Virus record (IMG/VR): IMGVR_UViG_3300025880_000037
Span: 1 to 37,040 of that record
DNA length: 37,040 nt
From: a virus
Strand: one strand, 5' to 3'
Shown: in pieces, positions 6,901-31,959 of the stretch
Numbering within the stretch: the first letter of the stretch is position 1
Layout of the letters: every line of letters begins with the position of its first letter
Program-made: the position numbers and the translations under genes
Notes under the pieces: model-generated
The model's input: only the letters and a program-made list of their open reading frames with translations
What the model was told of the DNA's origin: nothing
Database searches by the model: none

Positions 6901-7332
6901 TTATTCTGGAGCTGCAGGATCTTCACCAGGTTCTGAATCTGGTTCCGCAGCAGCTAAAGGTGATACTTCATCTTCGGGTGCCCAAGGCATCGCTGCATCA
7001 GCAACTAGTTCGTCGTCAATCTTCTTAGCGACAATTCCTGAAATATGATCAGCATATCCCTGGTCAGAATTTACAACGTTTTGAACCCAACCAACAACTG
7101 TGTTTTCAGTTAGATCGTCAAATGCTGTAAAAGAACCAGCAGGAACGTTTTCAGCAGTAAAAGGTGTAGCTCCTGAGAACTCTCCTTCGTTACCATCGCC
7201 GTCTACTCCAACAACTTTCCAATATGTTTGAACAATAGCTCCGGTTAATGTCGCGCCTTCAGCATTTACTTGGTCTCTTTTCTTCAAACCAGTAATACTC
7301 CAAGTCCACGTATAATCTGTACTTAGTGCCAT
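6901..7332 (-). CDS. Small phage protein with acidic tail (DUF7936-like)
   Basis: The protein has 143 residues. The core MALSTDYTWTWSITGLKKRD, VNAEGATLTGAIVQTYWKVV and VDGDGNEGEFSG matches the 109-residue neighbour. A helical segment with FDDLTENTVVGWVQNVVN follows, then DDELVADAAMPWAPED. Unlike its paralogue it carries an extra C-terminal tail of about 25 residues rich in Glu, Asp, Pro and Ala, likely disordered. Overall it is acidic. It is the first gene after a perfect late promoter box 38 bases upstream and has a clear GGAG ribosome-binding site, so it is expressed late. Function unknown; it could be a small virion protein or a fibre assembly factor. I am confident of the gene and of the paralogy, not of a role. 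Confidence 0.78.
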   Translation of the reverse strand: MALSTDYTWTWSITGLKKRDQVNAEGATLTGAIVQTYWKVVGVDGDGNEGEFSGATPFTAENVPAGSFTAFDDLTENTVVGWVQNVVNSDQGYADHISGIVAKKIDDELVADAAMPWAPEDEVSPLAAAEPDSEPGEDPAAPE

Positions 7333-7395: not shown

Positions 7396-7423
7396 AAAAA
7401 CTAGTTCATATGTCAACTAGTTT
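7396..7423 (-). terminator. AT-rich hairpin overlapping the giant fibre stop, terminator-like
   Basis: A 9-base perfect stem (aaactagtt at 7398-7406 against aactagttt at 7415-7423) with an 8-base loop overlaps the TAA stop. On the minus strand the distal arm runs into a short T run. The stem is AT-rich with little room for a U tract, so it may be a weak terminator or an mRNA 3' stabiliser. Confidence 0.4.
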
Positions 7424-13400: not shown

Positions 13401-16400
13401 AGGATTACTTGAACCAAAGTGTTGATATGCAGCACCATTATTACCTGCCCAGAATGTACCCCAGTTACCAGCAGTGTTCCAAATCCAATGCGAATAATCT
13501 TGAGCTTCAATTACCTTGTTTGTATCACCATTACCTGATGTATCAAAACCTTGACGGTAGATTCTACCGTTAGTCATCAATCCGCGGCTTGTATTACCTG
13601 CAGCTGGATTTAAGTAATAAGTAGTATCATTTGAATCATAATAGATTGGTGCTCGCATTTGATTATTTGCGAGGAAGTAACCATTTGCTGTTTCAGCCTG
13701 TTGGGTTCCGTTATAGTATAAAAGAGTTCCGGCGTTTCTATACCACTGTTGACTCCATTCGTTATCGGTATCATTGTAAATACCAACACGTTCTGGTCCA
13801 TTTGACATTAAGACCCATTGGCCTGCGATAGAATAACCAGCCCAACCAGATTTATAACCGCCAACTTCCATTGAACCGTAATTACCAGAAGCAGCATCGG
13901 CATAATATGTAGTTGCATGGTTAAAGTAATAACGCAATGCTTGTACTGCGTTTAATCTTGTAGTACTTGCAGCGTCAACATAATAACCAGTATTACCACT
14001 ATCATAATAGATAGGCGAACGAAGTTGATTCTGTCCAAGGAAGTAACCATTTTCAGCACTTCCCTGTTGTGAACCGTTATAGTACATGGCAGTTACACCA
14101 CCATTCTCGCCTCTAAATAACCAATGATTATTTACATCGTTATAGATACCACTAGTGTTCGCGTTGTTGTGCATAAATACAACACGATCATTAATAGAGA
14201 AGCCTTCGTATCCACTTCGTCCTGTACCAGAAACCGTTAATGAACCAAACGTACCATTAGGTGATCTTAATATAACACCATCTTCGAGTTTGATTGTTGC
14301 TAATCTTGATTCACCAGCAGGATCTGCAAAGTAAGCAGTATTGTTTGTATCAATAAACTTATCTGCGTAGAAGTCGTTACCTGTACCTGGGTTAACATTA
14401 TATAATGGGAAGTCAACAAAATTAGAATAGGCAGTGCCTGAGTTCCAAGTTTGTTGCCACAGTCTCATTCCAAGACCAGACTTTTTAACCATTAATAAGT
14501 TATCAGAACCACCAGAAGAATCAGTGTAAGATCTAAAGTGTAAGTAATCAGCCCAAGGTGCAGTATTGTTATTATTCCAAGATGTGAAACCGAATCTTAA
14601 TCTTCCTGCAGTATCTTCATTTGGTTCAATAATACGGTTATCTCTAGACTTCAGATAATTTGCATATCCTGAAACACCTGGAGCTTGAATCTCATTCGTT
14701 ACTGTTAGGTTAACAAAATCACCTGAAGTAATATATGAATTGCCCCAACGATAAGCGGGTAAACCTAAATTACCTTGAGCATTAACTCTTGGTATTACCG
14801 TTGCACCAACAGTACCATTACTTTCACCGAATACATAATGAGTTGAAGCTTCAGACGAATCAAATACCATTGCCAAGCCAGCACCAGTGGTAACTGAGTT
14901 ATCAGCGTGCCAAACTTTAATAGATGCTTGTTGTTTTCCACTTAATCCGGCTAATTCACCAGATTGGTCGGTCATTGTAATACCGACACCGCCGCCATTA
15001 GTAGGCTTTTGTAATTCTATTCCTGAACCGTAAACTTCAAGCTTGTTTCTAAATCTTATCCTGCCATTGTTAATTTGGCCTCTAATAATACCGCCAGTTG
15101 TAAGTTCAATCTGGTCAGCGGCCGGGAATCCAATATAGGTATTTGTGTCACCACGATGTCTTACCCAATCATCAATATCTACTGTGTTAAATTGTGAGTC
15201 ACCATCTGGGTCAGCATAATAAGCAGTATTCTGATATGAATAGAATACATTACCGTAATATGCACCTGTTGTGTAAATATGCTTATTATTTCTAGAACGG
15301 AGATATGTACCATCGGTCATGTACCAACCGCCACCCCAACCGAATCCTAATTCTTCATCTTTAAGGAATGTTGCTGTACCACGACCAATTACAATAGCAT
15401 CATCACTACCTGCTAATTGAATTGAACCGCCGACGTGTAATCTGTTTGTTGTAAGTGCTCCGCCAACAACTGGAGTATTATCACCTACTGTATATGTTGG
15501 TGCTGAAGAATTCGCAATCATAACATTTACGTTATCATCAACAATTAATGCTTCAGTATATCCTGAATTCCAGAATCCCCAAGTTGTTCCTGATTTTAAT
15601 ACTTGATATAAGTTGCCTGAACTATCACCACGAATAGAACCACCGTCTACTCCGTCATGATAAAAGTGAATATATCTTTGACCGTTTCCTGCTGGGTTAG
15701 CAGATGAATCAATAAGATTCATATATTGTAATGCGTATCCACCAGAAACATTACCACTTATTGCGATTGAAGGATTACTTGTAGATCCGTTTCCGTCTCC
15801 GTAACCCATTAAGGCAATACCACCATTACCTGTCGTATCAGCCCATCTTGAATTGTTTGCGATGTTTTCTATTCTTACCGCACCAGCAAAGGTTGCCGCT
15901 AATGTTGTATCACCGGGATGTACAAAATAACCTGTAGCATTTCTATCAACAAATCTATCTGCTTGAACATCACCTTGAACAATAACAGGGTGAGAGAATG
16001 TTGAGTTAGCATCCGTAATATTTAATCTTTCAACACCGCCTGTGACAAACGTTTGACTATCTGCAGCATCAAAACCAAAGTAATTATTTGTATCACCACG
16101 ATGACGAATATAAGTATCAATATCAATTTGTGCCATCTGAGAAGTAGATGCAAAGTTACCATAATAATTTGTGTTATTTGAATCGTAGAAGATAGGTGAA
16201 CGCATTTGATTATTTGCTAATACATAAGTATCATTAACTAATAATCTTTGAGCATTACCTGTGACAACTTCAAAACTGTTTGCGCCGTTGAAGTTTAAAT
16301 ATGTATCAGTATCACCGTCGTGGAATATAGTACCAACAAGACCAATACCAGACATTCTTGAATTGCCTGCTGGATTAACATAGTATGTTGCGTTATTTAA

Positions 16401-18689
16401 ATCGTAGAAAGTACCTGCATATACATTCGGGAAAATTGCATCAACAGTACCTGTGATATTCGTTGCATTGATTTCAAATCTTTCAACTGCGGCTGTGGTA
16501 AAGATAATGTTATCGTTAGAATCAAAACCTAAGAATGTATTTGTATCACCGTTATGTTGAATGTAATCATCAATACCAATACGATTCATTACTGATGTTG
16601 AATTAGGATCTGCATAATAAGCATTGTTATCAGCATCTAGGAATCTTGAAGCAGCAAGGTCACCAGTGAATGTACCATTGACTGCTGTAATATCTCCACT
16701 TACATCGAGATCACCAGTAATATTAACACCGGTATTTAATACCTCAACTCTTGTAGTACCGCCTGTATCAATCTTAACGTTATCAGTAGCAAAATTAATC
16801 TTGGTATCAGTATCGTTATTATGAACAATTGCATCGTTAACATAAAGATTAGGTACATATGTATCAAGGTTAGATAAGACTCTTGAATTATTAATATCTA
16901 ATCTTGTAGTACCACCAGTGTTTAATTTTATCTGGTCAGTAGTAAAGTTTAGTTTTGTATTTGTATCACCGTTATGGAATAAATCATCATCTATTCCAAC
17001 GTCGTTTAATGTTGAAGTACCATGAGGATTAAGAACGTATGAATTATTATCTACATCTATAAATGACTTACCGTATACATCTTCAGCAGCTCTAACATTA
17101 CCGGCAGTTGCTGTGACATCTCCTGTCGTTGCCGTAACACCTGTTCCACCAGTTACTGTTGTTCCTGCTGATACCGAAGTACCTGCGGTTACTGTTGTTC
17201 CTGCTGCGACTGAACCTGATGGCGCTGCGATGTTTCCTGCTGAGGCTGTTATATCACCGGCAGTTGCTGTTATGTCATCACCAGCAATAACATCATCGCC
17301 TGCGACTACATCACCTGCAGTTGCCGTAACATTTCCTGTTGTTGCTGTTACGCCTGTTCCACCAGTTACTGTTGTTCCTGCCGCAACTGAAGTACCTGCG
17401 GTTACTGATGTTCCTGCCGAAACTGAACCAGCGGTTGCACTGATATTACCTGCAGTTGCTGTTATGTCTTGACCGGCTGTAACATCGTTATCTGCTAATA
17501 CATCTCTTCCTGCATCAACATCTCTATCAACATTCCAGTCACCGTCAGTATCTGAACTTGCATTCCAACCAGAGTTATCATTTTTTAAGAAACCTATTGT
17601 ACCATTGTTTCCGTATAATACTCTGTCTTGACCTGAAGTGGCAAAGTTTATTTGAGCAGCGCCATTACCATCACCAACAGTAATATCACCTTCTATTGTA
17701 ATATTACCAGTTGCAGTATCATCTGCGTCTGAACGTAAGAATTGAGCAGCTTCTAAACCGTCTACAGTATCAGCATCAAATCCATTTCCTGAACCTTCAT
17801 CTGCTGTTGTAATAACTCTACCAAGAACTGCATTATTAACTTCTAACTGCCAATAGTCTTGGGATTCATTCCATACAAGTTTAGGATTTGCTAATGTACC
17901 ACGCTCAACTTCAATACCTGCATTCTCTGAAGGAGCAGATCCTGTATAGTTGGCATTAAGTGTAATAATATTATCGGATAATAATATCTCTTCGGTATTT
18001 ACATAAGTAGTATTACCTGAAACTGTTAGATCACCACCAATTGTTAAACTACCTGCTACTTGAGCATTTGCTTGTGCATCAAGTAAAGCTTTAATAACTG
18101 CTTGACCATCAATCGTAATGTTTGTATCAATTTGTGCAGAACCAGTAACATCAATATCTTGACTGAAGAATATATTACCTGCAGCAGTATCGTCAACATC
18201 TGACCTTAAGAATTGACTTGCTTCTAAACCATCAACAGTATCTGCATCAAGATTATTACCTGAACCTTCGTCTGCAGTTGTAAGTATACGATTACCTTCA
18301 ATCGTCGTTGTGGCAAGACCTGTGAAATCAACGCCTGTAGATGTAAAGGCTGCTATTTCAGTTCCTGCGTAATTAATAACAATACCAGCAGTACCATCAT
18401 AAAAACTAATGGAGTTATCTTGCTGAGGATTTGTTATTTTATAATCGCCCGCAGAAATATTGCGAATCTGGAGTGAATCAGAATCACCTTCAAATTGAGC
18501 GATAATAGTAGATGCGGAATGCCCACCAGAATTGGTGACCTTTAGGGTTGGCGTACCCTGCACAGCTTGTGTTAGAACGGAATCACCGGTGACCTGGAGT
18601 TTTTCTCCTGTATCAGTAGTGGATCCAATGACAGCGTTTTCGGGCGTCAAGAGACCGTTCTTTACTATAAACTTTTTATCATTTGCCAT
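7422..18689 (-). CDS. Giant tail fibre protein with C-terminal S74 chaperone domain
   Basis: About 3755 residues from ATG 18689. A GTG three codons earlier abuts the GGGGAGAG ribosome-binding site, so ATG (MANDKKFIVKNGLLTPENAV) is preferred. Regions: residues 1-400 hold modular fibre elements (SGNTTYVNTE, LSDNIITLNAN, FDADTVDGLEA twice); about 400-535 a Gly/Ala/Thr/Val low-complexity tract (TATAGN and VTAGTSV units); about 540-3530 a long shaft with about 24 copies of a Y-D-x-N-x-T-x-Y-Y-x-x-P-x-x-T-S motif, spaced irregularly and separated by variable segments; about 3612-3755 an S74 endosialidase-type chaperone beginning SSDERLKTNIKPIENALEKL, with VGVLAQEVEKVLPQ and a C-terminal coiled coil. 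In this family the chaperone trimerises the fibre and cuts itself off just before the conserved Ser-Asp. It has its own late promoter. The role is a long trimeric host-recognition fibre or tail extension. Length is extreme even for phage fibres. Confidence 0.9.
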   Translation of the reverse strand: MANDKKFIVKNGLLTPENAVIGSTTDTGEKLQVTGDSVLTQAVQGTPTLKVTNSGGHSASTIIAQFEGDSDSLQIRNISAGDYKITNPQQDNSISFYDGTAGIVINYAGTEIAAFTSTGVDFTGLATTTIEGNRILTTADEGSGNNLDADTVDGLEASQFLRSDVDDTAAGNIFFSQDIDVTGSAQIDTNITIDGQAVIKALLDAQANAQVAGSLTIGGDLTVSGNTTYVNTEEILLSDNIITLNANYTGSAPSENAGIEVERGTLANPKLVWNESQDYWQLEVNNAVLGRVITTADEGSGNGFDADTVDGLEAAQFLRSDADDTATGNITIEGDITVGDGNGAAQINFATSGQDRVLYGNNGTIGFLKNDNSGWNASSDTDGDWNVDRDVDAGRDVLADNDVTAGQDITATAGNISATAGSVSAGTSVTAGTSVAAGTTVTGGTGVTATTGNVTATAGDVVAGDDVIAGDDITATAGDITASAGNIAAPSGSVAAGTTVTAGTSVSAGTTVTGGTGVTATTGDVTATAGNVRAAEDVYGKSFIDVDNNSYVLNPHGTSTLNDVGIDDDLFHNGDTNTKLNFTTDQIKLNTGGTTRLDINNSRVLSNLDTYVPNLYVNDAIVHNNDTDTKINFATDNVKIDTGGTTRVEVLNTGVNITGDLDVSGDITAVNGTFTGDLAASRFLDADNNAYYADPNSTSVMNRIGIDDYIQHNGDTNTFLGFDSNDNIIFTTAAVERFEINATNITGTVDAIFPNVYAGTFYDLNNATYYVNPAGNSRMSGIGLVGTIFHDGDTDTYLNFNGANSFEVVTGNAQRLLVNDTYVLANNQMRSPIFYDSNNTNYYGNFASTSQMAQIDIDTYIRHRGDTNNYFGFDAADSQTFVTGGVERLNITDANSTFSHPVIVQGDVQADRFVDRNATGYFVHPGDTTLAATFAGAVRIENIANNSRWADTTGNGGIALMGYGDGNGSTSNPSIAISGNVSGGYALQYMNLIDSSANPAGNGQRYIHFYHDGVDGGSIRGDSSGNLYQVLKSGTTWGFWNSGYTEALIVDDNVNVMIANSSAPTYTVGDNTPVVGGALTTNRLHVGGSIQLAGSDDAIVIGRGTATFLKDEELGFGWGGGWYMTDGTYLRSRNNKHIYTTGAYYGNVFYSYQNTAYYADPDGDSQFNTVDIDDWVRHRGDTNTYIGFPAADQIELTTGGIIRGQINNGRIRFRNKLEVYGSGIELQKPTNGGGVGITMTDQSGELAGLSGKQQASIKVWHADNSVTTGAGLAMVFDSSEASTHYVFGESNGTVGATVIPRVNAQGNLGLPAYRWGNSYITSGDFVNLTVTNEIQAPGVSGYANYLKSRDNRIIEPNEDTAGRLRFGFTSWNNNNTAPWADYLHFRSYTDSSGGSDNLLMVKKSGLGMRLWQQTWNSGTAYSNFVDFPLYNVNPGTGNDFYADKFIDTNNTAYFADPAGESRLATIKLEDGVILRSPNGTFGSLTVSGTGRSGYEGFSINDRVVFMHNNANTSGIYNDVNNHWLFRGENGGVTAMYYNGSQQGSAENGYFLGQNQLRSPIYYDSGNTGYYVDAASTTRLNAVQALRYYFNHATTYYADAASGNYGSMEVGGYKSGWAGYSIAGQWVLMSNGPERVGIYNDTDNEWSQQWYRNAGTLLYYNGTQQAETANGYFLANNQMRAPIYYDSNDTTYYLNPAAGNTSRGLMTNGRIYRQGFDTSGNGDTNKVIEAQDYSHWIWNTAGNWGTFWAGNNGAAYQHFGSSNPNEYVFVGSGNVRASIDLDDGNAYFQGTVSAGNFALSGGNENISLNPAYGSGGADLVLFDMTPYMEARVIQNIDDNENNLTGTTSEYVKGDGPFAGGYVLRTSAYRNFYSNYIPVSPGEDIYGEISTRLISGSGGLLYYGVERFDKDKKPIAGNTGTTYFVVGGSNRTSTSWETLRNHTTMPTSHTPYNGSDGGGVHYVRIRILLNYNSGGALREYGGIMLKRRNAESNLLVDDLRVSDQLNVDGNAFITGDLTVDDITADVIDANIFRDRGNTAYYIDPASTGTSVNVRGVIQNPSIWINDGNEVNSYNENIRLFNASNGVSVIAFSATGTAGAPATSILGYSDRLETRRVNDWQQRTYAGRSEFVGDIRPTLMYDRNDTSYYLDPNSNGRMWQLGIGYRAAGKRLDVTGDHGNTAIRLALNAPQNGNGTGEWALQAWVSEPGRTWEGAGFGYNVDNNLNANTNQYYLGRPNTIGGQAYMRFERDGHTVFYNTNTSGTRYTSMSMYSSNYITVGNYLQAANSLRAPIFYDSNDTNYYANPASNSRFNTMQFVGDVNFDGGAGAIEITSSDIRSNGNSNWTGNPGSGVGKIQMHSNRWYIVSNGNSNRIVQFRQDGSDKSYIANDGRLHGVGGTGSQDWRAPIFYDSNDTSYYANPNGTSQFSTMVLRGNRLGFVTTAFDAEIRVTDNNPDGTGATFVLYGDGVAENAELATEVFRGSRHMRSPRYYDLNNASYYGDFASTSYMNDVRANIFYERENTAYYFGSSQGDARFRDTRVNNLRVENGVTIESVNGNGRIYLGGNLHIDAQNSNDIYLNYYSGRRTRMYAPGQVEAARLDTNRIFYAFYDFRAPIFYDYNDTTYRVDPNGTSVLRRLTINESLNGYLPDNFGRFRWSTGYFNNGTSTANFIGDLGDNEALSQGFTAQKVPWSYAGNSDVNTGITSIEMAGSSLATWHDGSYYTTLVIRPTTGNGGGAVYIYNNQGGGYSPGWRQVATSSTDFYNYNSLRSPIFYDINNTGFYTDPASTSILQNLTIGNYGTISLRTQSGNVRGYIQSREENDAHLIIATSGNEDISFRDGGTSGTWNQIIRGNGQVLVASRFDTPIMYDRNNTGFYVDPDGASNFNVSVRANEVYARNWFRNDNSGEGLYNQATAMHWYSDSSSRFRLYSTSSTSQILFTTSGNNARGYVYATNSNEIGFLNSGGSWSLRIDNSGNSFHSASARAPIFYDNNDTGYYLDPNSTSNAALRIRGGALHGPNPSWGRYLAVGTNGRYNNEASVATTNGNLHLDSRSGNNLYLQWYVGGTTFVNGSVQANIYYDRDDTAYYGNFASTSYMNDVRANIFYDRNNTAYYFGSGSGDSRFNTTTVGNLYNYNWFRNYNAGQGLYNQATGRHFYSPGSTYWHLDGASGSGGLIIYSGYNGSQGASGNRRGYLYYDSGGFGLLHSGGGWAFRISPGSTSTEQFGVSYMNDARAYIYYDRNNTAYYFDGASLRSTRFEGVSNRTMAHMNLPGHTRNSGEFYRSRAQRTSDTNYWTGAMGWSRVDMNVVSTWGSGFIDSWSSPPNQPSGTSHWVGTQAFHYRNSNTSGYGWQMVGGPIENLRFRSSWPTWRSWRTIPMLDVNNGNGGAMYAGIYYDSNNTGYYMNPASTSYWSTSQQNGYHTFLNYGVGVTGTYTSTRLQCVFAMGSSYRPNSAGTSAANMYGIAWSHPNAGSLGGANQLSDHGMLIINNGSWRAAIGPRIVCRDDMRATLFYDRNNTGYYVDPASTSNLYQINVPGNQIIIQGSSPTLYMRDVNHYTSMVHQNSNVFYVLSGRSNNTTSWSTYNGYWPMTLSMVNNDCQLGGNLRARYNVIAYSSDERLKTNIKPIENALEKLCTLRGVTFDWTDEAGEAGFHPEQKYNDVGVLAQEVEKVLPQLVMPAPFDLHQGNPDTEYVEGELSQAELLGTSKSGKNYKTVEYGRMVALTIEAIKEQQTIINKQQQEISDLKDMVSELVKKLS
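7425..7856 (-). other. S74 intramolecular chaperone domain of the giant fibre
   Basis: These are the last 144 residues. Key residues: S-S-D-E-R-L-K at the start (predicted self-cleavage before Ser in S-D), L-R-G-V-T-F-D-W, V-G-V-L-A-Q-E-V, an insert of about 40 residues absent from the collagen fibre's version, V-E-Y-G-R-M-V-A-L-T-I-E-A-I-K-E, and a heptad-like C-terminal helix. Confidence 0.88.
8080..17075 (-). repeat. About 24 coding repeats of a D-x-N-x-T-x-Y-Y-x-x-P motif
   Basis: The shaft of the giant fibre repeats a segment of about 20 residues, for example IFYDSNDTNYYANPASNS, IYYDRNNTAYYFDGAS and LFYDRNNTGYYVDPASTS. Spacing ranges from about 40 to over 150 residues because unrelated segments lie between copies. 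Early copies are followed by a second element with H-x-G-D-T-[ND]. Two further copies occur in the 1349-residue fibre. Confidence 0.85.
17105..17440 (-). repeat. 213-base direct duplication in a Gly/Ala/Thr/Val tract
   Basis: Segments beginning at 17105 and 17318 are similar over about 110 bases (both run through cctgttccaccagttactg) and are offset by 213 bases (71 codons). They encode repeated TATAGN, VTAGTSV and VTGGTGVTATTG units of the giant fibre. Confidence 0.75.
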
Positions 18690-18739
18690 TCGGTTCACTC
18701 TCCCCAGATAGGCGGTTTTTATTAATCAACGTATACCTT

Positions 18740-22133: not shown

Positions 22134-25100
22134 TTAAAAGGTTCCTCCATCTAATGTTGTGACAGTTACGTCACCGCTTGCCACAGTAAAGTTTGCGGTA
22201 TTAAACGAAGCAACACCAATATTGGTATCTGTTGCCAATTCACCAGCAATTAATATCTGATTATTGCTGACTGTTGTATTAATACCTTCGCCTGCGGCGA
22301 AAGCGATTGTCTCACCTAATTGAACTACATCGGTAGTTCCGGTCTCTGCTGATATATTAATACCACCAGTTGTTAGGTTTCCAATCGTAGTATCTAAAAA
22401 TTGTTTATTAACTGCATCTAAACTATTGACAGGATCTAACAAACCTGTTATAATAGAGTTATCAACACTAATACTACTACTGAATGAAGATAATGTTAAT
22501 CCACCAGCTGTTGTTGTTAAAGCATTGTTCGCAAGAACAGTATTAGTTCCAACTACAACTGATGTATCTGTATTGATATTTATTAGTCGAGTATCAAAAC
22601 CCGCAGGGTTTAGCTTATATGTATTATTATCCGAATCAATAAATGATTTAGAATAAATGTCTCCATCTGTTACATACCAACTATCATTTGATTTATCAAA
22701 GTAAGTACCAAAGTTAAACGAATTACTTAAGAAACCAATCTGTGTACCCAAAGCGTAGAAATACATATTTCCACCATTGGTACCCATAATGATTTGGGAA
22801 TTACCTTGCTGATAACCAATATGCATATTTTTAAATCGAGAAGTACCCGACGGATCAGCATAGAATGATAAGTTATCTTTACTTACAAATTTTGTTGCTC
22901 TTAAATCACCGTTAGATGTATCACCGCCTTCTGCGTTAATATATCTGCCATCTAAGTCAGCATAATCAAATGTTGTTAAGATAGAAACGTTAGAGTTATT
23001 CTGAACAGTGCCACTACCTGAAACAGCTCCTGTTAACGCAACATCAAATGGATTCGTATAGAAGTTTAATTTCTGATTTGGATTATCAGCAATAACTTGA
23101 ATACCATTCTCAACGTTATTTCTAACCGCATCTTCAAGAACACCGTAAATAGAAGGTACGAAGTCAACAACCGCATTGGATGATACTGATAAAGGAATAT
23201 TAACAATAGAACGAACACGTCCGTAAATATCAAACTCAAAGTTTGGTACCGTTCCTTCAACACCAGCTTCTCTTAATCCTACGAACGAATCCCATACAGT
23301 ATCCAAGGCAAAGGCAGTAACATTATTACCTGAGTCGTAACTTTCAATTGTAAGACCTGTTCCAACTTCAAGACTTGGAGTATTCTCTGTATTGAATAAA
23401 TCAAGAACGTAAGTATTAGCGCCTTTCGTTACATGGAAGTCTCTATCAAAAGTATTCTCTACATAAAACTTAGTGACAGCATCTGAATTTGCGATTGGTT
23501 CAGCAAGACCAGTAATAACTGTATTGGAAACATCAATACTTCCACCTACATCAAATACAAGATCAGTAGCTGCGGCTGTTTTTATTGATTGGTCATTGCC
23601 AACTGTAAACGCAGTAACACCTGCAGTGACAAACCTTAATTCATCGTTATCTGCACCAGGACTTGATTCTGCTTCGATAAAGGTATCTTGGTCAACATCT
23701 TTGACTCCACCTAAACTTGCCCAAGCATTTCCACTATAACCTTCAAATACTCCGTCTGATGTATTGAAACGAACCATACCAGCATCAAGAGGATTAGGTC
23801 TCTCTGCAGTTGTACCAACAGGAACTGTGATTGCACCAGTTGCATCAACTTCGACTACATTAGTATCACTCTTAAGTTTTCTTACATATAATTCTGACCA
23901 ATTAGAACCTGTAGCACCAAGGTCAAATGTATCATCAGTTTGTGGTAATAGATCTGAAGTAAAGTCAGCAACAACATTAATAGAATCTGTTACTTGATCA
24001 CCAAGAGTTAGATTACCTGCGATCGTTACATTGCCAGTAAATTCACCATTACCATCAACTCTAAATAACGATCCATCCCAAGTTAAACCTGCATCGTCGG
24101 TTAATGCACCTGAAGGACCCGCGACTACAACTCTATTATCTGTTAAACTACCTACTGATAATTGATCTGTTGCAGCATTATATGTTAATCCTGAATCACC
24201 AGTGATTTGTCCGTTTGCACCAGCAACGAATACTTGTCCTAAAGAAACTGTTTCAATTGTTGGTGCTGTTAAAAATTCTGCGCTTGCATTAACTGTTAAA
24301 TGACTACCGTCAAACTGGATATTGTTATTTGAAGATAAAGCACCGGTATCGGTTACGAACATCATTGTGTTCGCTTCAAGGTTACCTACTGATAAACTAT
24401 CTCCTGATAAACCACCTGATGTACTAAAGTCACCATCAACTGTAATACCACCAACGATTGTTAAATTAGTTCCGTCCCAAGATAGATTGGCTTGACCTTC
24501 TAATGTACCGCCGCCTGAAGTATAAACAACTGACCCAGCAGGAATGGCAGAAACTGCAGCACTACCAAATGTTGCCTTACCTTGGTCAAAATCAAATACA
24601 ATCTCACTTAATGTTGGGCCATATTTAAAATCACCAGCTTCATCAATTTGTATTCTTTGAGTACCTGCGGTAAAGAAGTCAAGATCATCACCATCATTAC
24701 CAGGAGCGGTTTCAGCTCTTATGAAAGTATCTTTATCAACGTCTTTAACTGAACCTGCCAATTCAGACCAATTAATACCATCATAACCTTCAAATCGACT
24801 GTCTGAAGTATTATAACGAACCATGCCAACTTCATTGTTAGCAGGTCTGTCTGCGGTTCCACCAACAGGTAAAACAAGTGCACCTGTTTCATCAATAGAA
24901 ACTACACCTGAAGAACTCTTTAATGAAGGAGTAAATATTCTACGCCATTCTTTAGTAGGAGTACCTAAACTATATGTTTCAGAAGCATCAGGAATTAAAT
25001 CAGAAGTAAAGTCAGCAACTACGGTTACTGTATCAACTTCGTTATCACCTAATGTAAGGTTACCACCAATTGTAAGATTGCCTGTAATATCGGCATCACC

Positions 25101-26183
25101 AGTAACTGTAAACGTTGAACCGTCAAAAGTTAATTTACTACTATCAACTAACTCTCCATCAGTACCAGCATATACAATTCTACCTGATGTTAAATCAGTA
25201 ACATTAACTGAACCTAAAGTTGATTGACCTGGTACAGATAGAATATCTAAGAATACACCACCTGTTGCTGTAATGGAAACTCCATCAAAACTCAGATTAG
25301 CTGAATCAATCAATTCACCGTTTGCACCGGCATACATGATTCGGCCTTCAGTCAAATCTTGAATATTTACTGAACCTAAAGTTGCTTGACCTGTACTAAC
25401 ATCAAGATCATCGAGGAATACACCTCCTGTAGCAACAATACTTGTACCGTTAAATGTTAATCCTGCGTTATCAATTAACTCTCCACCTGCGCCCGCATAT
25501 ACAATACGACCTTGAGTTAAATCAGATACATTTAAACTATCGGTGTCTGTTTGACCGTCAACTTGTAATCCATCAAGGAATACTCCGCCTGAAGCAATTA
25601 ACGATGTACCATTAAATGTTAATCCTGCACTATCAGATACAAAGCCATTTGCACCAGCAAATAATATTCTGCCGTCAGTAATGTTTCTTATGGATAATGT
25701 ATTTGATAAAACAGGACCGGCTACGTCTAAAGAAGTAAGACCTGTAAGAGTAGAAGTTGTATCACCTAAAGTAAGTGATGTTGTACCGATTGTAAAATTA
25801 TCGGTTGAAATAACTGTTGAGTTAGCTGAAAAGTTTGCTGGATTTAAACTTACATTCTCAAAATCAGTAACATGGCCAAACGTATCAATTGATATATTTT
25901 TAGGATAAGATAAATTTGGATTTGTTGTACTAACTGCGTTTGAAGTATCTGCATGGCCGACAACAACATTTGCTGCTTCGTCAACAATGGTTTGCGTAAT
26001 AACAATACCATCAGCTGAAGTAACTTGACTTACATAAGGCCCAATCGTATCAATTCCGAGAACTACGGAATCTGGTACAATTTGTGGTTTTCTTTCTGCA
26101 GGTGCAACTATCGCAGTTGACTGACCTTGCTTCGGGACGGCCTTAATCGTGCGGCCAGCACCGACCTTGACCTTTATACTCAC
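22134..26183 (-). CDS. Modular tail fibre protein, 1349 aa, GTG start
   Basis: GTG at 26183 directly follows the TAA of the previous gene. GGAGG lies 8 bases ahead, which decides this start (MSIKVKVGAGRTIKAVPKQG). The N-terminal 110 residues include GHADTSNAVSTTNPNLSYPK and DTFGHVTDF, elements shared with the 1115-residue fibre. Residues about 165-360 are four units of about 54 residues (LTQGRIVYAGAGGELIDNAG, LTFNGTSIVATGGVFLD). Then a module of about 150 residues occurs twice (VVADFTSDLIP, TADRP, GMVRYNTSDSRFEGYDGINW and KDVDKDTFIRAE). Near residues 1090-1190 two copies of the giant fibre's motif appear (NLSFYADPSGTSRF and DNNTYKLNPAG). The C-terminus reads GVASFNTANFTVASGDVTVT. There is no S74 domain. 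It is a structural fibre or fibre-hub component, second in the late transcript from 26566. Confidence 0.85.
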   Translation of the reverse strand: MSIKVKVGAGRTIKAVPKQGQSTAIVAPAERKPQIVPDSVVLGIDTIGPYVSQVTSADGIVITQTIVDEAANVVVGHADTSNAVSTTNPNLSYPKNISIDTFGHVTDFENVSLNPANFSANSTVISTDNFTIGTTSLTLGDTTSTLTGLTSLDVAGPVLSNTLSIRNITDGRILFAGANGFVSDSAGLTFNGTSLIASGGVFLDGLQVDGQTDTDSLNVSDLTQGRIVYAGAGGELIDNAGLTFNGTSIVATGGVFLDDLDVSTGQATLGSVNIQDLTEGRIMYAGANGELIDSANLSFDGVSITATGGVFLDILSVPGQSTLGSVNVTDLTSGRIVYAGTDGELVDSSKLTFDGSTFTVTGDADITGNLTIGGNLTLGDNEVDTVTVVADFTSDLIPDASETYSLGTPTKEWRRIFTPSLKSSSGVVSIDETGALVLPVGGTADRPANNEVGMVRYNTSDSRFEGYDGINWSELAGSVKDVDKDTFIRAETAPGNDGDDLDFFTAGTQRIQIDEAGDFKYGPTLSEIVFDFDQGKATFGSAAVSAIPAGSVVYTSGGGTLEGQANLSWDGTNLTIVGGITVDGDFSTSGGLSGDSLSVGNLEANTMMFVTDTGALSSNNNIQFDGSHLTVNASAEFLTAPTIETVSLGQVFVAGANGQITGDSGLTYNAATDQLSVGSLTDNRVVVAGPSGALTDDAGLTWDGSLFRVDGNGEFTGNVTIAGNLTLGDQVTDSINVVADFTSDLLPQTDDTFDLGATGSNWSELYVRKLKSDTNVVEVDATGAITVPVGTTAERPNPLDAGMVRFNTSDGVFEGYSGNAWASLGGVKDVDQDTFIEAESSPGADNDELRFVTAGVTAFTVGNDQSIKTAAATDLVFDVGGSIDVSNTVITGLAEPIANSDAVTKFYVENTFDRDFHVTKGANTYVLDLFNTENTPSLEVGTGLTIESYDSGNNVTAFALDTVWDSFVGLREAGVEGTVPNFEFDIYGRVRSIVNIPLSVSSNAVVDFVPSIYGVLEDAVRNNVENGIQVIADNPNQKLNFYTNPFDVALTGAVSGSGTVQNNSNVSILTTFDYADLDGRYINAEGGDTSNGDLRATKFVSKDNLSFYADPSGTSRFKNMHIGYQQGNSQIIMGTNGGNMYFYALGTQIGFLSNSFNFGTYFDKSNDSWYVTDGDIYSKSFIDSDNNTYKLNPAGFDTRLININTDTSVVVGTNTVLANNALTTTAGGLTLSSFSSSISVDNSIITGLLDPVNSLDAVNKQFLDTTIGNLTTGGINISAETGTTDVVQLGETIAFAAGEGINTTVSNNQILIAGELATDTNIGVASFNTANFTVASGDVTVTTLDGGTF
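23580..25090 (-). repeat. Duplicated module of about 150 codons within the 1349-aa fibre
   Basis: Copy one lies at about 24600-25090 and copy two at about 23580-24040. Both encode N-L-T-L-G-D, V-V-A-D-F-T-S-D-L, P-V-G-x-T-A-[DE]-R-P, G-M-V-R-[YF]-N-T-S-D, F-E-G-Y, and K-D-V-D-[KQ]-D-T-F-I in the same order. Ends are approximate. Confidence 0.8.
25100..25700 (-). repeat. Four tandem coding repeats of about 162 bases
   Basis: Units encode L-T-x-G-R-I-[VLM]-[YF]-A-G, then L-[TS]-F-[ND]-G-[TV]-S and G-G-V-F-L-D. Spacing is about 54 codons. More divergent copies follow at lower coordinates. Confidence 0.8.
26174..26183 (-). promoter_or_regulatory. GTG start of the 1349-aa fibre, immediately after TAA
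   Basis: The minus strand reads GGAGG, 8 bases, then GTG, with the previous stop (26186-26184) touching the start. No ATG in frame competes near this ribosome-binding site, so GTG is the start and translation is probably coupled to the previous gene. Confidence 0.75.
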
Positions 26184-26522
26184 TTATGAAACCTCCGTAA
26201 TAGTATCAACTACGATTGCCAAGCCTTCTACTATTTTTGTAAGTTCTCCTGTTTGTTTTTCCATGACAACATCGTATTGGTACTTACCAGGTGCCAACGT
26301 TTCTGTTTGTTGGTCGGTTAGTACTAAAGTGATGTCATTGTTTGCGACTTCGATATTAAAATTAACCGCCGCGCTTGATGAGTATACTTTTCTGAGACTA
26401 CTATAGAAGTTGTAAACGGAGATGGTCGCATCATCGTATTCGACACCTTCATCATTAAACAGATTTAATTCCGTTCTGAAGTCCAAACCCTTATCGATGT
26501 ATATGTTAGCTCTTGATGCCAT
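26184..26522 (-). CDS. Small virion structural protein, 112 aa
   Basis: The protein starts MASRANIYIDKGLDFRTELN, followed by LFNDEGVEYDDATISVYNFY, then FNIEVANNDITLVLTDQQTE, LAPGKYQYDVVMEKQTGELT and KIVEGLAIVVDTITEVS. The pattern D-F-x-x-x-L-x-L-x-x-D-x-G and A-P-G-K-Y-x-Y-D-V is a small immunoglobulin-like or BppU-like beta sandwich of the sort found beside fibre genes in marine T4-like phages (recalled, not checked). There are no membrane segments. It is the first gene after the late promoter at 26566-26559, with AAGG upstream, and its stop touches the GTG of the 1349-residue fibre. It may be the adaptor that attaches that fibre to the virion (inference). Confidence 0.75.
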   Translation of the reverse strand: MASRANIYIDKGLDFRTELNLFNDEGVEYDDATISVYNFYSSLRKVYSSSAAVNFNIEVANNDITLVLTDQQTETLAPGKYQYDVVMEKQTGELTKIVEGLAIVVDTITEVS

Positions 26523-26661: not shown

Positions 26662-29600
26662 TTAGTTCTTAAGGTCTTCGATTTCTGCTTTCAATTCTTT
26701 GATTGCTTCAATCAGTACTCCAACGATGTTACCATAAGCTACGTGTTTAATTCCTTCGTCTGATTCAACCACAACTTCTGGAAGTATTTGTTCAACCTCT
26801 TGAGCAATAACACCAGTTGCATAATCACCAGAATCCTTCCAATTAAAGTTAACACCTCTTAAACTTTCAACCTTATCGAGAGCGTTTTCAATTACCACAA
26901 TATTTTCTTTAAGTGATTCATCAGATGTTGAATTAAAGTTAGTAGCTGTAATATCACCAGTTGTAGTAATATTGAATGATTGTCCGTCTAAGTTACCACC
27001 TAATTGAGGAGTTGTATCATCAATAAGATCATTCATTGATCCACTACCACTACCAGTTGGCCATGACGTAATCGTAGAACCACCTAGCGTAGCACCACCT
27101 TCAATACTAATATTTTCAACAGTAACCTTATCGGTTGATGCAGTATAGAAGAAGTTAGTTTGGTTACCAGTTGTGATTGTTGGTAAAGCACTGTGGTCGT
27201 AGTTAGGTCCTGTAGTACCATATAATGGTCTTGCACCTGATCCACCTTGAACCATTGTAATAAACATGTTGGTTGCTTGTAGACCTGACGCGTTAATATC
27301 ATCAACTTCTACTTCATCAGTTGAACCCGAAGTACCCTGTGGTCCCTGAACTCCAGTTCCTGTTGTTCCTTGAGGTCCTTGTACTGTACTATCAGCACCA
27401 ACTGCACCAGCTGTTCCTTGTGGTCCGTCCGGGCCTGCATCACCAGGACTACCTTGAATACCAGGTTCTCCTTGATCCCCTTTCTCACCTTGAGTACCCT
27501 GTGGTCCACCACCTGAAGCACCCTGTGGTCCTTCATCACCTTCAAAGCCTTGAGTACCTTGAACACCTTGTGGGCCTGTATCACCTGGAGCTCCTGGTCC
27601 GCCGTCTGCACCGGTTCCACCTTGTGCACCAGTTATTCCTTGTGGTCCATCACCACCGTCTCCACCAGCAGTACCTGCCGGTCCTTGAGGTCCTTCTGGT
27701 CCTAATCCACCTTCACCGCCTGAAGCACCCTGCGGTCCTTCGCCACCGGTATCTCCAGTAAATCCTTGTAAACCTTGAGGTCCTTGGATACCATCTTCAC
27801 CAGCACCAGTTTCACCCTGTGGTCCATACCAACCCTGAGTACCTTGAGGTCCTTGTACTGTAGAATCTGCTCCTGGCTCTCCAGGTCCACCTTGAATACC
27901 TTGAGTACCTTGTGGTCCTTGAACACCTACACCTGCATCTCCAGTAAATCCTTGAGTACCCTGATCTCCCTGAATACCTAAGTCACCTTGAATACCGTCT
28001 CCACCAGCTCCACCTTGGAATCCTTGTCCACCTTGAATACCTTGAGTACCTTGGTCGCCTTGTAAACCTTGAGGACCAGTTCCACCAGGACCATCATTAC
28101 CTTGGAATCCTTGAGTACCCTGAACACCTTGAGAACCAGTTCCATCAAATCCTTGTGTACCTTGGTCGCCTTGAACACCTTGAGTACCTTGTTGGCCTTG
28201 TATACCTACATCACCGCCTGAACCTTGATTGCCCTGAACACCTTGAATACCTTGTGGTCCGTATCCGTCAGCACCTTGAGCACCAAAACCTTGTGGTCCT
28301 TGAGTACCTTGGTCGCCTTGAACACCTTGAGTACCTTGCTGACCTTCGCCACCAGGTTGTCCTTCATCACCAGTTCCACCCTGAACACCTTGAGTACCTT
28401 GAATACCTTGAGCACCCGCACCAGCAGGTCCTTGAGCACCTTCGTCTCCATCAGAACCGATAATACCTTGAGTACCCTGATCACCTTGTAATCCTTGTAT
28501 ACCTTGGTTACCATCTCCAGAAGCACCTTGGAATCCTAACTCACCTTGTTCACCTTGAGTTCCCTGAACACCTTGAGTACCTTGATTACCTTGAGCTCCA
28601 CCTAAACCTGATGTACCTTGGTCGCCTTGCGTACCTTGAACACCTTGAGTACCTTGAGCTCCTGCACCAGTATTACCCTGAAGACCTTGATCTCCTTGAG
28701 TACCTTGAATTCCCTGCGTACCTTGAACACCTTGGTTGCCAGTACCACCTACATCACCTGTTCGAGCAAATGTAATCGTTACATCTTCATTATCAACAAA
28801 TGTACCATTACCACTTACAAATGCACAGGATATAATAAAGTATCCGGTAACTTCAGTAAGAGCAGAAATTGTAAATATTTGGAATAACTCTGGTTGACCT
28901 TTCTTGGTAATTCTAAAGTGACCTTTAATAGGACTTGTAGAATCATCAATCGTTCTGAGGAATGGTTCAATATTAACAAAGTTATCATCTCTATCACCGA
29001 TATAAGTAGCAGTGACCGAAGAATAAGTACCGTTATTGAATTTTAATCCACCAATACCAGGTGAGTTATTAACTGTGTCTGTTTTGAAAGTATAATCAAA
29101 AGTAATACCACCGAACGAACCAGCTTCACCGTCGTTACCTTGTATACCTTGAGTTCCTTGAACGCCTTGGACACCTTGACCGATTGTTCCTTGGTTACCT
29201 TGGAATCCTTGAGTACCTTGTGGTCCTTGAACACCTTCTGGGCCTCGAGGAACAAACGTTAATAATGTTTCAACTCCGTGAGAAGCAGCAACTGTTGTCC
29301 AGCTTGAAGCATTACCATCAATATAAACAACATCAAAATAACCGTAGTTTTTAGAACCTGAATCCCAAGTCCAATTTGTAATTTCGTATACTAACCAATG
29401 ATGACCACCAGGACCAGGATCTCCGCCTGCACCTACTTGAATTTTTAAATACGCTTTAGGTGAGCCTGGGAAAGCATCAATCCAATCTAATAAAGGATCA
29501 ATCTCTGTATCATATTGGTCAGAAGGAACATCATCAAGTGTAATTAATGTAGCAAGAGATGGATTAGAGTTATTGAACTTAAAGTTATTTGTACCTGGGT

Positions 29601-31959
29601 CAGTACCACCAACAACGTTTGAACTATAATTCCATGCAAATGTTAAACCACCGTATTCGCCTTGTTCACCTTGTAAACCTTGAAGTCCTTGTAGACCTTG
29701 TGCACCCTGATTACCAGTTAAACCTGTAAAGCCTTGAGTACCTTGATCGCCTTGTAATCCTTGGTTTCCTTGAATACCCTGTGTACCTTGGACACCCTGA
29801 ATACCTTGAATGGCTTCACCTTGTAGACCTTGGAAACCTTGAACGCCTTGGTCACCCTGAGTACCTTGTATGCCTTGAGTTCCCTGAACACCTTGTGTAC
29901 CTTGGTCGCCTTGTAATCCTTGCGTACCCTGAGGTCCTTGAATACCACGATCACCATTTCTTGAGAATGTTAATTTAACACCTGTACCATTACTGAAGGT
30001 ACTTGCACCACTAATTTGGTTCGATGTAAATTCCCAATAACCTGTCTTATTTGTTATTGAATCAATTCTAAATAATGCTTGATTGTAAATATTGGTTTCA
30101 TCAACAACTCGAACATAACCTTTAGGATCACCGACAATTGCGTTAAGTTCAGCTGCAAGGCCGTCCATAACATTTTGTCCGCCTTCGTCTTCATCGTCAA
30201 CCCATAAAAGAATATCTGTAGTTGAAAGACTAACGTTGCTGAATCTTATTTTACCTGTACCAGGATCGGCATCTGTTGTATTATTTTCATACTCATAATT
30301 ATAACTGATTCCACCGAAGTCACCAGTATTACCCTGAAGACCTTGGTCGCCTTGTAATCCTTGCGTACCTTGTAATCCCTGAAGACCTTGGTTGCCTTGA
30401 ATACCCTGAGTACCTTGACTTCCCTGAGAACCTACTTCACCTTGTGCTCCAGTAAATCCTTGAGTACCTTGATTGCCTTGAGTTCCTTGGTTACCTTGAA
30501 TACCAATGAATCCTTGAGTACCTTGAACACCTTGAGTACCAACTCTTCCGAATGAAAGTATGAATGCAGGATCTAATGCTACACCAGTAAATACTCCTGC
30601 ACTATTTGCTACCCATGATATTTGTAATGTTAACCAACCAGTATTATCAGTTACATCATTGATTTCAAAAGTAATGAACTCTTGAATATCTGAAATTCTT
30701 GTAAGTTGTATATAACCTTTAACAGGTCCTGCCACTAAATCAATACTGTTTAATAAGGCAGATATATCTTTGTTATTTTTTGCTTGTGCATCGATGAACA
30801 TTGCAGATGCCAAAGAAGGATCAGCATTATTGATTGCCCAACCACCTACTCCTGGATCTTGAGCAATTGTAGTGGAATCGTAATCAAATTCAAATGATAC
30901 TCCACCATAAGTACCTGAATAACCTTGTAAGCCATCGTCTCCTTGAATACCGATAAAGCCTTGAGTACCCTGAACACCTTGGTCTCCCTGTGTACCTTGA
31001 ATACCTAAGTCACCTTGAATACCGGTAAAGCCTTGGTTACCTTGTGTTCCTTGTAATCCTTGAGTACCTTGGAAACCTAAATCACCTTGAATACCTTGTG
31101 TACCTTGATCTCCCTGAACGCCTTGATAACCACGGAATCCTCTTTCACCTTGAATACCTTCGTAACCCAATTGACCTTGAACACCTTGGTCGCCTTGAAC
31201 GCCTTGTGTACCTTGAACTCCACGGAATGTACCGAGGTTAATCCAAACAGATCCATCGTATACCCAGATTTCTTCATCAGCGTCATCTACTACAGCATTA
31301 CCAACAACTGCAGAACCAAAGGCCGCATTTAAAGTAGCTTGTGGATCTCCACCAGAATCGACATCAGGTACTGAACCGATAATATCGAAACCAGGACCGT
31401 AATCACCTTGTAAACCTTGAGTTCCTTGTGCACCTGTTATACCTTGAACACCGGCACCTACTTGAGTAACTGGGTCAGATGCAAATACCATAATGGCAAA
31501 TGCACTTGCGGCAGATGGTGTAGTTACTGCGCCATTATTGTCGTATAATGAAATTTCAAATCCATTTACTGTTTTACTTTGTACTGATACATATCTTCCA
31601 TCATCATTTAGTTCACCATCAGTTATAACTGTATAATCAGTATCAGGTTGAGCAGTAGTAAATGTAAGGTCTAATGTTCCTGTACCTGCATTCCAATTAG
31701 AAGATGCAATTCCTGTACCTGTGATTGCTGTTACGCCATCAACTCTAATAAATGCAAAAGGCAAAATTGCGGTTTGTGTTACATTCGAATCAGATAATAA
31801 TTCTTTCCAGACCGTGCCATCAGAATAATAAACTTTATCATTCTCAGCATAAATTAATGAACCCTCGTAAGGTACGGGGTCAAGCGTAATCGGAAATGGC
31901 TGCGGAATACCGTAACCAAGTAATTGATTTTTTCCTGTTATTGTACCAAATCTGGACAT
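26662..31959 (-). CDS. Collagen-like tail fibre with C-terminal S74 chaperone domain
   Basis: 1765 residues. Residues 1-165 form an N-terminal head (MSRFGTITGKNQLLGYG; YAENDKVYYSDGTVWKEL at 37-54; then a beta module). From about 168 onward G-x-y collagen triplets appear, rich in Gln at the third position (GTQGVQGDQG), interrupted by a linker with EEIWVYDGSVWINLG (229-243). Four related globular domains of about 120-140 residues break the collagen: about 351-473, 547-670, 769-905 and 947-1065, each opening G-G-[VILT]-[ST]-[FY] and closing with a F-x-R-x-G strand. A collagen tract of about 480 residues follows (1069-1550), then a short beta region and the S74 domain (about 1679-1765: SDESLKENIVVIENALDKVE, TGVIAQEVEQILPE, YGNIVGVLIEAIKELK). 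It is a trimeric fibre; S74 trimerises it and, by family precedent, may cleave itself off. AAGGAA precedes the ATG. Confidence 0.9.
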   Translation of the reverse strand: MSRFGTITGKNQLLGYGIPQPFPITLDPVPYEGSLIYAENDKVYYSDGTVWKELLSDSNVTQTAILPFAFIRVDGVTAITGTGIASSNWNAGTGTLDLTFTTAQPDTDYTVITDGELNDDGRYVSVQSKTVNGFEISLYDNNGAVTTPSAASAFAIMVFASDPVTQVGAGVQGITGAQGTQGLQGDYGPGFDIIGSVPDVDSGGDPQATLNAAFGSAVVGNAVVDDADEEIWVYDGSVWINLGTFRGVQGTQGVQGDQGVQGQLGYEGIQGERGFRGYQGVQGDQGTQGIQGDLGFQGTQGLQGTQGNQGFTGIQGDLGIQGTQGDQGVQGTQGFIGIQGDDGLQGYSGTYGGVSFEFDYDSTTIAQDPGVGGWAINNADPSLASAMFIDAQAKNNKDISALLNSIDLVAGPVKGYIQLTRISDIQEFITFEINDVTDNTGWLTLQISWVANSAGVFTGVALDPAFILSFGRVGTQGVQGTQGFIGIQGNQGTQGNQGTQGFTGAQGEVGSQGSQGTQGIQGNQGLQGLQGTQGLQGDQGLQGNTGDFGGISYNYEYENNTTDADPGTGKIRFSNVSLSTTDILLWVDDEDEGGQNVMDGLAAELNAIVGDPKGYVRVVDETNIYNQALFRIDSITNKTGYWEFTSNQISGASTFSNGTGVKLTFSRNGDRGIQGPQGTQGLQGDQGTQGVQGTQGIQGTQGDQGVQGFQGLQGEAIQGIQGVQGTQGIQGNQGLQGDQGTQGFTGLTGNQGAQGLQGLQGLQGEQGEYGGLTFAWNYSSNVVGGTDPGTNNFKFNNSNPSLATLITLDDVPSDQYDTEIDPLLDWIDAFPGSPKAYLKIQVGAGGDPGPGGHHWLVYEITNWTWDSGSKNYGYFDVVYIDGNASSWTTVAASHGVETLLTFVPRGPEGVQGPQGTQGFQGNQGTIGQGVQGVQGTQGIQGNDGEAGSFGGITFDYTFKTDTVNNSPGIGGLKFNNGTYSSVTATYIGDRDDNFVNIEPFLRTIDDSTSPIKGHFRITKKGQPELFQIFTISALTEVTGYFIISCAFVSGNGTFVDNEDVTITFARTGDVGGTGNQGVQGTQGIQGTQGDQGLQGNTGAGAQGTQGVQGTQGDQGTSGLGGAQGNQGTQGVQGTQGEQGELGFQGASGDGNQGIQGLQGDQGTQGIIGSDGDEGAQGPAGAGAQGIQGTQGVQGGTGDEGQPGGEGQQGTQGVQGDQGTQGPQGFGAQGADGYGPQGIQGVQGNQGSGGDVGIQGQQGTQGVQGDQGTQGFDGTGSQGVQGTQGFQGNDGPGGTGPQGLQGDQGTQGIQGGQGFQGGAGGDGIQGDLGIQGDQGTQGFTGDAGVGVQGPQGTQGIQGGPGEPGADSTVQGPQGTQGWYGPQGETGAGEDGIQGPQGLQGFTGDTGGEGPQGASGGEGGLGPEGPQGPAGTAGGDGGDGPQGITGAQGGTGADGGPGAPGDTGPQGVQGTQGFEGDEGPQGASGGGPQGTQGEKGDQGEPGIQGSPGDAGPDGPQGTAGAVGADSTVQGPQGTTGTGVQGPQGTSGSTDEVEVDDINASGLQATNMFITMVQGGSGARPLYGTTGPNYDHSALPTITTGNQTNFFYTASTDKVTVENISIEGGATLGGSTITSWPTGSGSGSMNDLIDDTTPQLGGNLDGQSFNITTTGDITATNFNSTSDESLKENIVVIENALDKVESLRGVNFNWKDSGDYATGVIAQEVEQILPEVVVESDEGIKHVAYGNIVGVLIEAIKELKAEIEDLKN
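26665..26925 (-). other. S74 intramolecular chaperone domain of the collagen-like fibre
   Basis: These are the last 87 residues. S-D-E-S-L-K-E-N-I matches the S-D-E-R-L-K-T-N-I of the giant fibre's domain, followed by L-R-G-V-N-F-N-W, G-V-I-A-Q-E-V, Y-G-N-I-V-G-V-L-I-E-A-I-K-E-L and a terminal helix. It lacks the insert seen in the giant fibre's domain. Confidence 0.85.
27310..28755 (-). repeat. Long Gln-rich collagen-like G-x-y tract
   Basis: Coding repeat of about 480 residues made almost wholly of G-x-y triplets such as GTQGVQGDQGTQG, with later stretches richer in Pro, Ala and Glu (GPQGPAGTAGGDGG). On the plus strand it reads as repeated ccttga and accttg units, which create spurious antisense open frames. 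Confidence 0.9.

Follow-up and report, generated by a model that had tools for sequence, protein, structure and literature searches.

The window, that is, the whole stretch of 37,040 nucleotides analysed here (IMG/VR virus record IMGVR_UViG_3300025880_000037), carries a gene for a collagen-like fibre protein at positions 26662..31959 of the minus strand. It is one open frame of 1765 amino acid residues with an ATG start, and all of the features described below within the gene lie on the same strand. The N-terminal region (residues 1-169, 31453..31959) matches the tail fiber family phrog_3484 with an E-value of 1.3e-10 and is presumed to be the virion-proximal attachment; a tblastn search of named phages gave no match to it at E 1e-3. 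A short collagen stretch separates this region from a small knob of residues 191-246 (31222..31389), which together with its flanks matches the tail fiber family phrog_3904 (E 0.0018). A collagen tract recognized by triplet runs and a profile match (residues 247-351, 30907..31221) leads to the first of four globular inserts that are homologous to one another. Insert 1 (residues 352-474, 30538..30906) is followed by collagen spacer 1 (residues 475-548, 30316..30537; 72 residues by the HMM boundaries), insert 2 (residues 549-671, 29947..30315), spacer 2 of 98 residues (29653..29946), insert 3 (residues 770-908, 29236..29652), spacer 3 of 41 residues (29113..29235) and insert 4 (residues 950-1070, 28750..29112). 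Beyond insert 4 lie a long distal collagen tract of 477 residues (1071-1547, 27319..28749), a putative tip region (residues 1548-1678, 26926..27318) and a Peptidase_S74 intramolecular chaperone (residues 1679-1765, 26665..26925).

The initial annotation had described a collagen interrupted by four related globular domains, and this observation is confirmed as a whole: one frame, collagen tracts and four homologous inserts. It had included neither the S74 chaperone nor the small knob, a fifth insert of 56 residues unrelated to the other four; both were found here. The model PF13884 matches residues 1679-1730 with 58 bits against a cut-off of 22. The Ser-Lys dyad Ser1679/Lys1684 has the same spacing as S911/K916 of endoNF and S587/K592 of MyRF, the dyads given in PMC8326128. 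The motif S[DS]xxxK.[ND]I was found at the C-terminus of 20 of the 168 distinct related frames, which is no measure of how common S74 is, given that the motif is stringent and many frames may be truncated at contig ends. Among the 218 other (non-family) internal segments of these 168 frames, 133 fall into the single-linkage cluster of the fifth insert. Other segment types recur in the related fibres as well, and viral collagens therefore seem to use a toolbox of inserts.

The gene following the fibre (26184..26522, minus strand) matches phrog_1084 and phrog_3304 (L-shaped tail fiber assembly) with E-values of 1.7e-15 and 1.3e-14. Its tblastn matches comprise 94 phage records, 76 of them from Synechococcus phages, with Prochlorococcus, Methylophilales and Pelagibacter phages also present. 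Upstream of the fibre gene is a frame of 1504 residues (1526 when read from the window edge), which distantly resembles tail fibre proteins of cyanophages, half of its length aligning at about 24% identity. Downstream, a frame of 1349 residues (22134-26183) is like virion structural and baseplate proteins and matches the structural family phrog_6005; internal repeats are visible by eye in its translation. A frame of 1115 residues, also downstream, resembles tail fibres. In the frame of 3758 residues with a GTG start (7422-18698), likewise downstream, only the C-terminus matches tail fibre families, and the remainder has no PHROG match at E 0.001.

The collagen nature of the tracts is clear. 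The profile PF01391 matches 14 stretches of the fibre protein with 269.7 bits against a cut-off of 27.2. When runs of at least four are counted, there are 276 Gly-X-Y triplets outside the four inserts; the raw count was 280, and the four triplets excluded lie inside insert 3 (residues 843-854). Glutamine occupies 170 of the 276 Y positions and 5 X positions, and proline occurs 24 times in X and 7 times in Y, or at 31 of the 552 X/Y positions. The heavy use of Gln in the third position together with little Pro, pointed out in the initial annotation, is thus borne out. Calculated over 272 triplets, the tracts have 8% Pro in X, 62% Gln in Y and 6% imino acids. Table 4 of PMC3368898 lists Gln in Y at 13% for viral collagens and 18.4% for those of Gram-positive bacteria. 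Of 90 frames bearing the insert, the 86 that contain 20 triplets or more have a median fraction of Gln in Y of 0.52 (range 0-0.94) and a median content of imino acids of 6%, and Thr in Y reaches 0.77 among them. These medians make the Gln-rich, Pro-poor fibre typical of its family, so its composition is extreme in comparison with the published averages and usual among collagens that bear this insert. The host-guest propensity is 78.62 per triplet over the 272 triplets, compared with 77.06 after exchange of X and Y; the highest value among 1000 shuffles is 78.26. A propensity above the swap and all of the shuffles indicates that the placement of residues within the triplets is non-random.

It had been proposed that such a helix would need stabilization by means other than hydroxyproline. 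This is true but ordinary, as phage and bacterial collagens are described in PMC3368898 as lacking hydroxyproline anyway. Other routes to stability put forward in the same source are charge, Ala, Gln and Thr, and Thr and Gln are tied to hydration networks in a review (PMC8968730). An extreme composition is found in the related locus L030 (5912-14284), which codes for a fibre of 2791 residues. Its 490 triplets have Gln at 89% of the Y positions, and imino acids make up about 1% and charged residues 2%. Tracts of this type, with almost no proline or charge, offer a testable limit case for the stability of the triple helix.

Tracts with 6% imino acids might be weak, and the inserts could then be purely structural, acting as clamps that re-nucleate, register or stiffen a Pro-poor helix and have no ligands of their own. 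We consider this rather unlikely, although several of the results below are relevant to it. In L030, 389 triplets are distributed over four gaps of 162-629 residues, the longest of which also holds another segment; long tracts of such make-up evidently do without close clamps.

With a triple-helix rise of 0.286 nm per residue, the predicted length of the collagen is about 233 nm if every tract is triple-helical. A value of 0.29 nm per residue is used in PMC3368898. Breaks in the triplet register, mostly of the form Gly-x-Gly, are concentrated in the distal tract, where 10 are found in 147 triplets, as against 2 in the 75 triplets between beads. Eight relatives have 10-17 breaks in the distal part and 1-2 between beads; the exceptions are L030 (0 and 0) and L047 (3 and 5). 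The distal breaks are possibly hinges.

The four inserts belong to one family. All six pairs are homologous even when the motif ends are left out, with local alignment z-values of 7.6-21.1 (300 shuffles each) and a real score above the best shuffle in every pair. The opening motif GG-x-[ST]-[FY], noted earlier as common to the inserts, is present in all four and nowhere else in the protein. The common closing F-x-R-x-G holds for three inserts, again nowhere else in the protein, and fails for insert 3, which ends in F-V-P-R-G. The AlphaFold model of insert 4, built with 89 aligned copies, has a mean pLDDT of 95.2 and a pTM of 0.87, and that of insert 3, the odd one of the four, has values of 92.0 and 0.88. 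In both models the order of elements is strand, strand, strand, helix and four further strands, with a helix added before the last strand in insert 3. At E <= 0.001, insert 3 has 39 matches in BFVD, all of which are among the 49 matches of insert 4; 26 of these 49 are named collagen triple helix repeat, and the others are unnamed or named otherwise. As modelled, inserts 3 and 4 have the same compact beta-fold. A string of beads of one domain family, as first suggested, is therefore supported for all four inserts by sequence and for inserts 3 and 4 also by the predicted structures and the BFVD overlap.

The insert cores alone matched no model of Pfam, PHROG or NCBIfam, with best E-values of 0.12, 0.21 and 0.065, respectively. 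Whole-protein PHROG alignments do run into the inserts, for example phrog_8745 over residues 560-770. A Foldseek search of the PDB with insert 4 gave no match at E <= 0.001, and the entry 6pv5_A, reached in a PDB profile search at E 0.039 only, was taken as a chance hit. Structural matches by VIA to UPF1, V-ATPase, a tailspike and the Sf11 tail were not taken as evidence of a relation; the best Z-values, 6.1 and 6.0, are to unlike proteins and at a level common for this tool. In the comparisons with the PDB, no solved structure, binding domains included, gave a convincing match. A literature search covering mainly open-access papers yielded no published description of the bead insert. A profile of this domain, for which the searched libraries contain no model, would annotate many collagen-like viral proteins.

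In an alignment of 95 copies the most conserved columns are G1 (86%), G2 (96%), F115 (98%) and G119 (100%), together with P18, K63 and G64; the residues at the collagen junctions, G2, F115 and G119, are thus among the most conserved. The strands 64-70, 77-88, 91-101 and 109-117 are joined by short turns. If these strands form antiparallel hairpins, the turns 71-76 and 102-108 would be located opposite the collagen exit and the turn 89-90 at the exit end. The mean entropy is 3.0 bits in loop 71-76, 2.6 bits in loop 102-108 and 1.45 bits in turn 89-90. The first two loops hold 282 of the 458 inserted residues over the 12 positions tallied, and the additional helix of insert 3 sits in the second of them; 41 inserted residues are found at turn 89-90 despite its low entropy. 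Loop 42-46 is as variable as loop 102-108, and some strand columns are equally variable, so the variable loops are not clearly one-sided. A simple rule of variable loops and conserved strands was rejected, the mean entropy of loops (2.07) being lower than that of strands and helices (2.20). Loops 71-76 and 102-108 probably face away from the collagen, which would fit outward binding loops.

Diversifying selection was not found on whole domains: the dN/dS values (Nei-Gojobori, six pairs of fibres) range from 0.07 to 0.32 across 24 insert comparisons, these values being averages over the whole domain, which leave room for selection on single sites, with some dS near saturation. Purifying selection of this kind would suit structural clamps as well.

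The bead domain occurs widely in viral collagens and in few named phages, as a search for the insert in other phage fibres made evident. A scan of environmental viruses with the four inserts gave at least 148 confirmed among 598 candidate stretches, from which 79 loci were kept, and a second scan gave at least 585 among 600 candidates, with 80 loci kept. In 84,980 bacterial and archaeal genomes, scanned with narrow patterns, four loci were found; a Rhodobacteraceae MAG accounts for three of them and a second MAG for the fourth. A tblastn search of 50,697 named phage records with three different copies gave 3, 7 and 5 records, duplicates of one phage included. The 383 profile matches reduce to 273 distinct copies with visible flanks, and 264 of these lie between collagen of at least five triplets on each side, a location that speaks for structural clamps. 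By source, the collagen-flanked copies number 140 of 143 in the first viral scan, 106 of 107 in the second, 13 of 13 in the MAGs, 4 of 4 in the window and 1 of 6 in the named phages. The viral scans keep the nearest relatives, so this high proportion applies to that section of the family.

The copies from named phages without collagen on both sides are three in the Pelagibacter phage HTVC010P (L005, KC465898) and one each in L006 and L009. One of the HTVC010P copies is followed by a run of six triplets; in L006 and L009 no triplet run is found beside the copy, while L007 has collagen on both sides. For L008, a phage of 735 kb, there is a tblastn match and no profile match. With five of the six named-phage copies not flanked by collagen, the domain does not need collagen, which argues against a role limited to clamping the helix. 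The three copies in HTVC010P are adjacent (16666-18538) and spread over two neighbouring genes: a putative tail fibre carries two of them and the gene beside it the third.

Five collagens of giant viruses in BFVD match insert 4 across the whole domain with TMq values of 0.86-0.96. They come from Marseillevirus LCMAC102 (one), Indivirus ILV1 (two) and Klosneuvirus KNV1 (two), which we take to be metagenome-assembled viruses. The likeness is known here from these five rows only (A0A481YTC9, A0A1V0SCQ2, A0A1V0SD64, A0A1V0SIY6 and A0A1V0SHP6), whose predicted structures hold the bead fold, and contamination of the assemblies is possible. A search for the NCLDV capsid in 40 related records found none and is uninformative, as the control search was likewise empty.

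A tree was calculated for 54 copies from 13 related fibres, picked among those with at least four beads, and in these chosen fibres the copies group mainly by slot and not by phage. The clades of slots 2, 3 and 4 have support of 0.90, 0.99 and 0.95. For slot 1, the copies from the window and L010-L014 cluster at 0.97, joined by L017 and L039 at 0.70, while L042, L057, L077 and L078 have a different slot-1 lineage (support 1.0) and in L087 slot 1 is occupied by a copy similar to insert 2. Extra copies fall inside the slot-3 clade (copy 3 of L017, copy 2 of L077, and copies 3 and 4 of L039), and copy 3 of L077 is outside the supported clades. When ten relatives were compared with the window at matching slots, identity was highest at slot 4 in nine of them, at 60-96%; in L042 slot 3 is higher. 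Slot-specific lineages in most relatives would fit different roles of the beads, and the slot-specific loop insertions are not obviously needed for clamping.

The distances between beads are also retained in most frames. Spacers of 72, 98 and 41 residues are found in 13 of the 21 distinct frames with at least four beads, and 72, 96 and 41 in two; as several of the 21 are truncated or nearly identical copies of others, they do not represent 21 independent events. Three frames with five beads have a first spacer of 72 and a last spacer of 41 residues, and the pattern differs in L030, L047 and L077. The distal tract, in contrast, varies in length: in the frames with a first spacer of 72 where the S74 serine could be seen, its distance from the last bead is 541-773. 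The spacers of the window are 56-78% identical to those of L012, L013, L014, L042 and L087, partly through shared composition. Equal length combined with drifting sequence points to selection on the distance between beads. If the inserts were clamps, such fixed spacing could be set by helix stability and the differences between slots by local packing.

Exact spacings and slot identity would equally fit docking sites. The beads might bind other fibre or baseplate proteins, with the spacing as an assembly ruler and host contact made only by the C-terminal tip, and several other large fibre-like genes are indeed present in the same cluster. We regard this as improbable: no partner is known, and the exchange of slot 1 between phages suits host adaptation more than fixed docking. 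Since the frame is known from an uncultivated virus record, an artefact of metagenome assembly or an unexpressed gene might also be suspected. This is very improbable, as beads and spacers follow one another in the same way in other contigs and the dN/dS values over all fibre segments are 0.03-0.48.

The arrangement of these features allows us to propose, with moderate confidence, that the protein forms a homotrimeric fibre (tail or side fibre) with specialised binding beads at fixed positions, and that the phage probably belongs to the T4 superfamily. The matches of the large neighbouring genes to tail-fibre and virion structural families count in favour of this. Three chains would wind into a collagen triple helix, and the S74 domain would gather them and then cut itself off at Ser1679. 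Four related domains, of predicted beta-fold, would sit in the triple helix at set distances. At each of them the chains would leave the helix at the conserved Gly-Gly, fold, and re-enter it at the conserved F-x-R-x-G. With the variable loops probably facing away from the collagen, each bead would present its own binding surface, and the putative ligands are sugars or proteins of the host envelope. The initial interpretation is in this way supported in part: the one-family beads on a string and the stabilization without hydroxyproline stand, and the trimeric state proposed for the knobs is made likely by two features, the collagen and the trimerising S74 chaperone. The different ligands that it suggested for the beads would fit the slot-specific lineages, but the whole-domain dN/dS values give no sign of diversifying selection. 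The symmetry of the beads, like the direction of their loops, is a deduction.

The specificity of phage fibres is usually thought to be carried at the tip. If the beads are binding domains, four lineage-conserved beads at fixed distances would make the fibre a multi-site adhesin, and this could explain how a phage holds on to hosts with sparse or changing surfaces. A broader proposal, which we put forward tentatively and think doubtful as it stands, is that the insert is a collagen-adapted bead module common to tailed phages and giant viruses of protists. Its numbered slots at fixed distances would then turn the fibre into a spatial code, or ruler, reading several host ligands, with slot 1 as an exchangeable specificity slot.

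Slot identity and fixed bead spacing are the new points in a fibre that is otherwise of a known general kind. EPclA and EPclB from E. coli prophages (Ghosh et al. 2012, PMC3368898) are likewise collagen phage fibres without hydroxyproline, trimeric in that study, with globules at the ends, and an internal globule of EPclB is thought there to hold Pf2 between two collagen parts. The composition is different: in the EPclP tracts charged residues are abundant, and Pro takes on average 48% of the X positions and Gln 14.5% of the Y positions (Table 4 of that paper), against 8% and 62% in the present fibre. In the Tal extensions of streptococcal and lactococcal siphophages, AlphaFold2 predictions place carbohydrate-binding and other binding domains on collagen-like linkers (PMC9437275, PMC9692632). 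As reported there, these linkers are short or of variable length, and Dali matches exist for the domains, which are CBMs and 3-beta domains, whereas the present fibre has long tracts and a bead family that lacks a clear relative among solved structures. Fibres of extracellular contractile injection systems combine a collagen-like shaft with lectins or other globules, proposed to allow flexible target engagement (PMC12923769); judged by that description only, their beta-propeller lectins and TNFR-like end domain are apparently not of the bead family. HTVC010P shares the beads themselves and differs in that none of its copies has collagen on both sides. With the S74 chaperones of endosialidase and MyRF (PMC8326128, PMC3742443) the fibre has the Pfam match and the dyad in common, but the chaperone is preceded by collagen and the tip region instead of a known triple beta-helix.

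The assignment of the window phage to the T4 superfamily is probable and is not general among the carriers of the bead. The related fibres L013 (contig of 156 kb) and L087 (137 kb) occur together with a T4-type gp23. The L013 copy shares 71% identity, at 93% query coverage, with gp23 from Stenotrophomonas phage DLP_6, Methylophilales phages Melnitz and Sinorhizobium phage phiN3. A gp23 was found in only 4 of 40 related records, those of L013 and L087 included, and several records without it exceed 130 kb, which suggests that many carriers are not T4-like or that their gp23 escapes the model. In pelagimyophage genomes, as described in PMC7029224, fibres and sugar genes make up part of a host recognition cluster, and collagen-repeat proteins occur in the structural region. 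In the window, the segment 3457-4209 resembles families of heptose kinase/adenylyltransferase (phrog_7878, E 4.4e-25) and of cysteine dioxygenase, and its product perhaps serves sugar metabolism near the fibre cluster. Two adjacent small genes at 6560-6889 and 6901-7332 both match phrog_7802 and are perhaps a tandem duplication.
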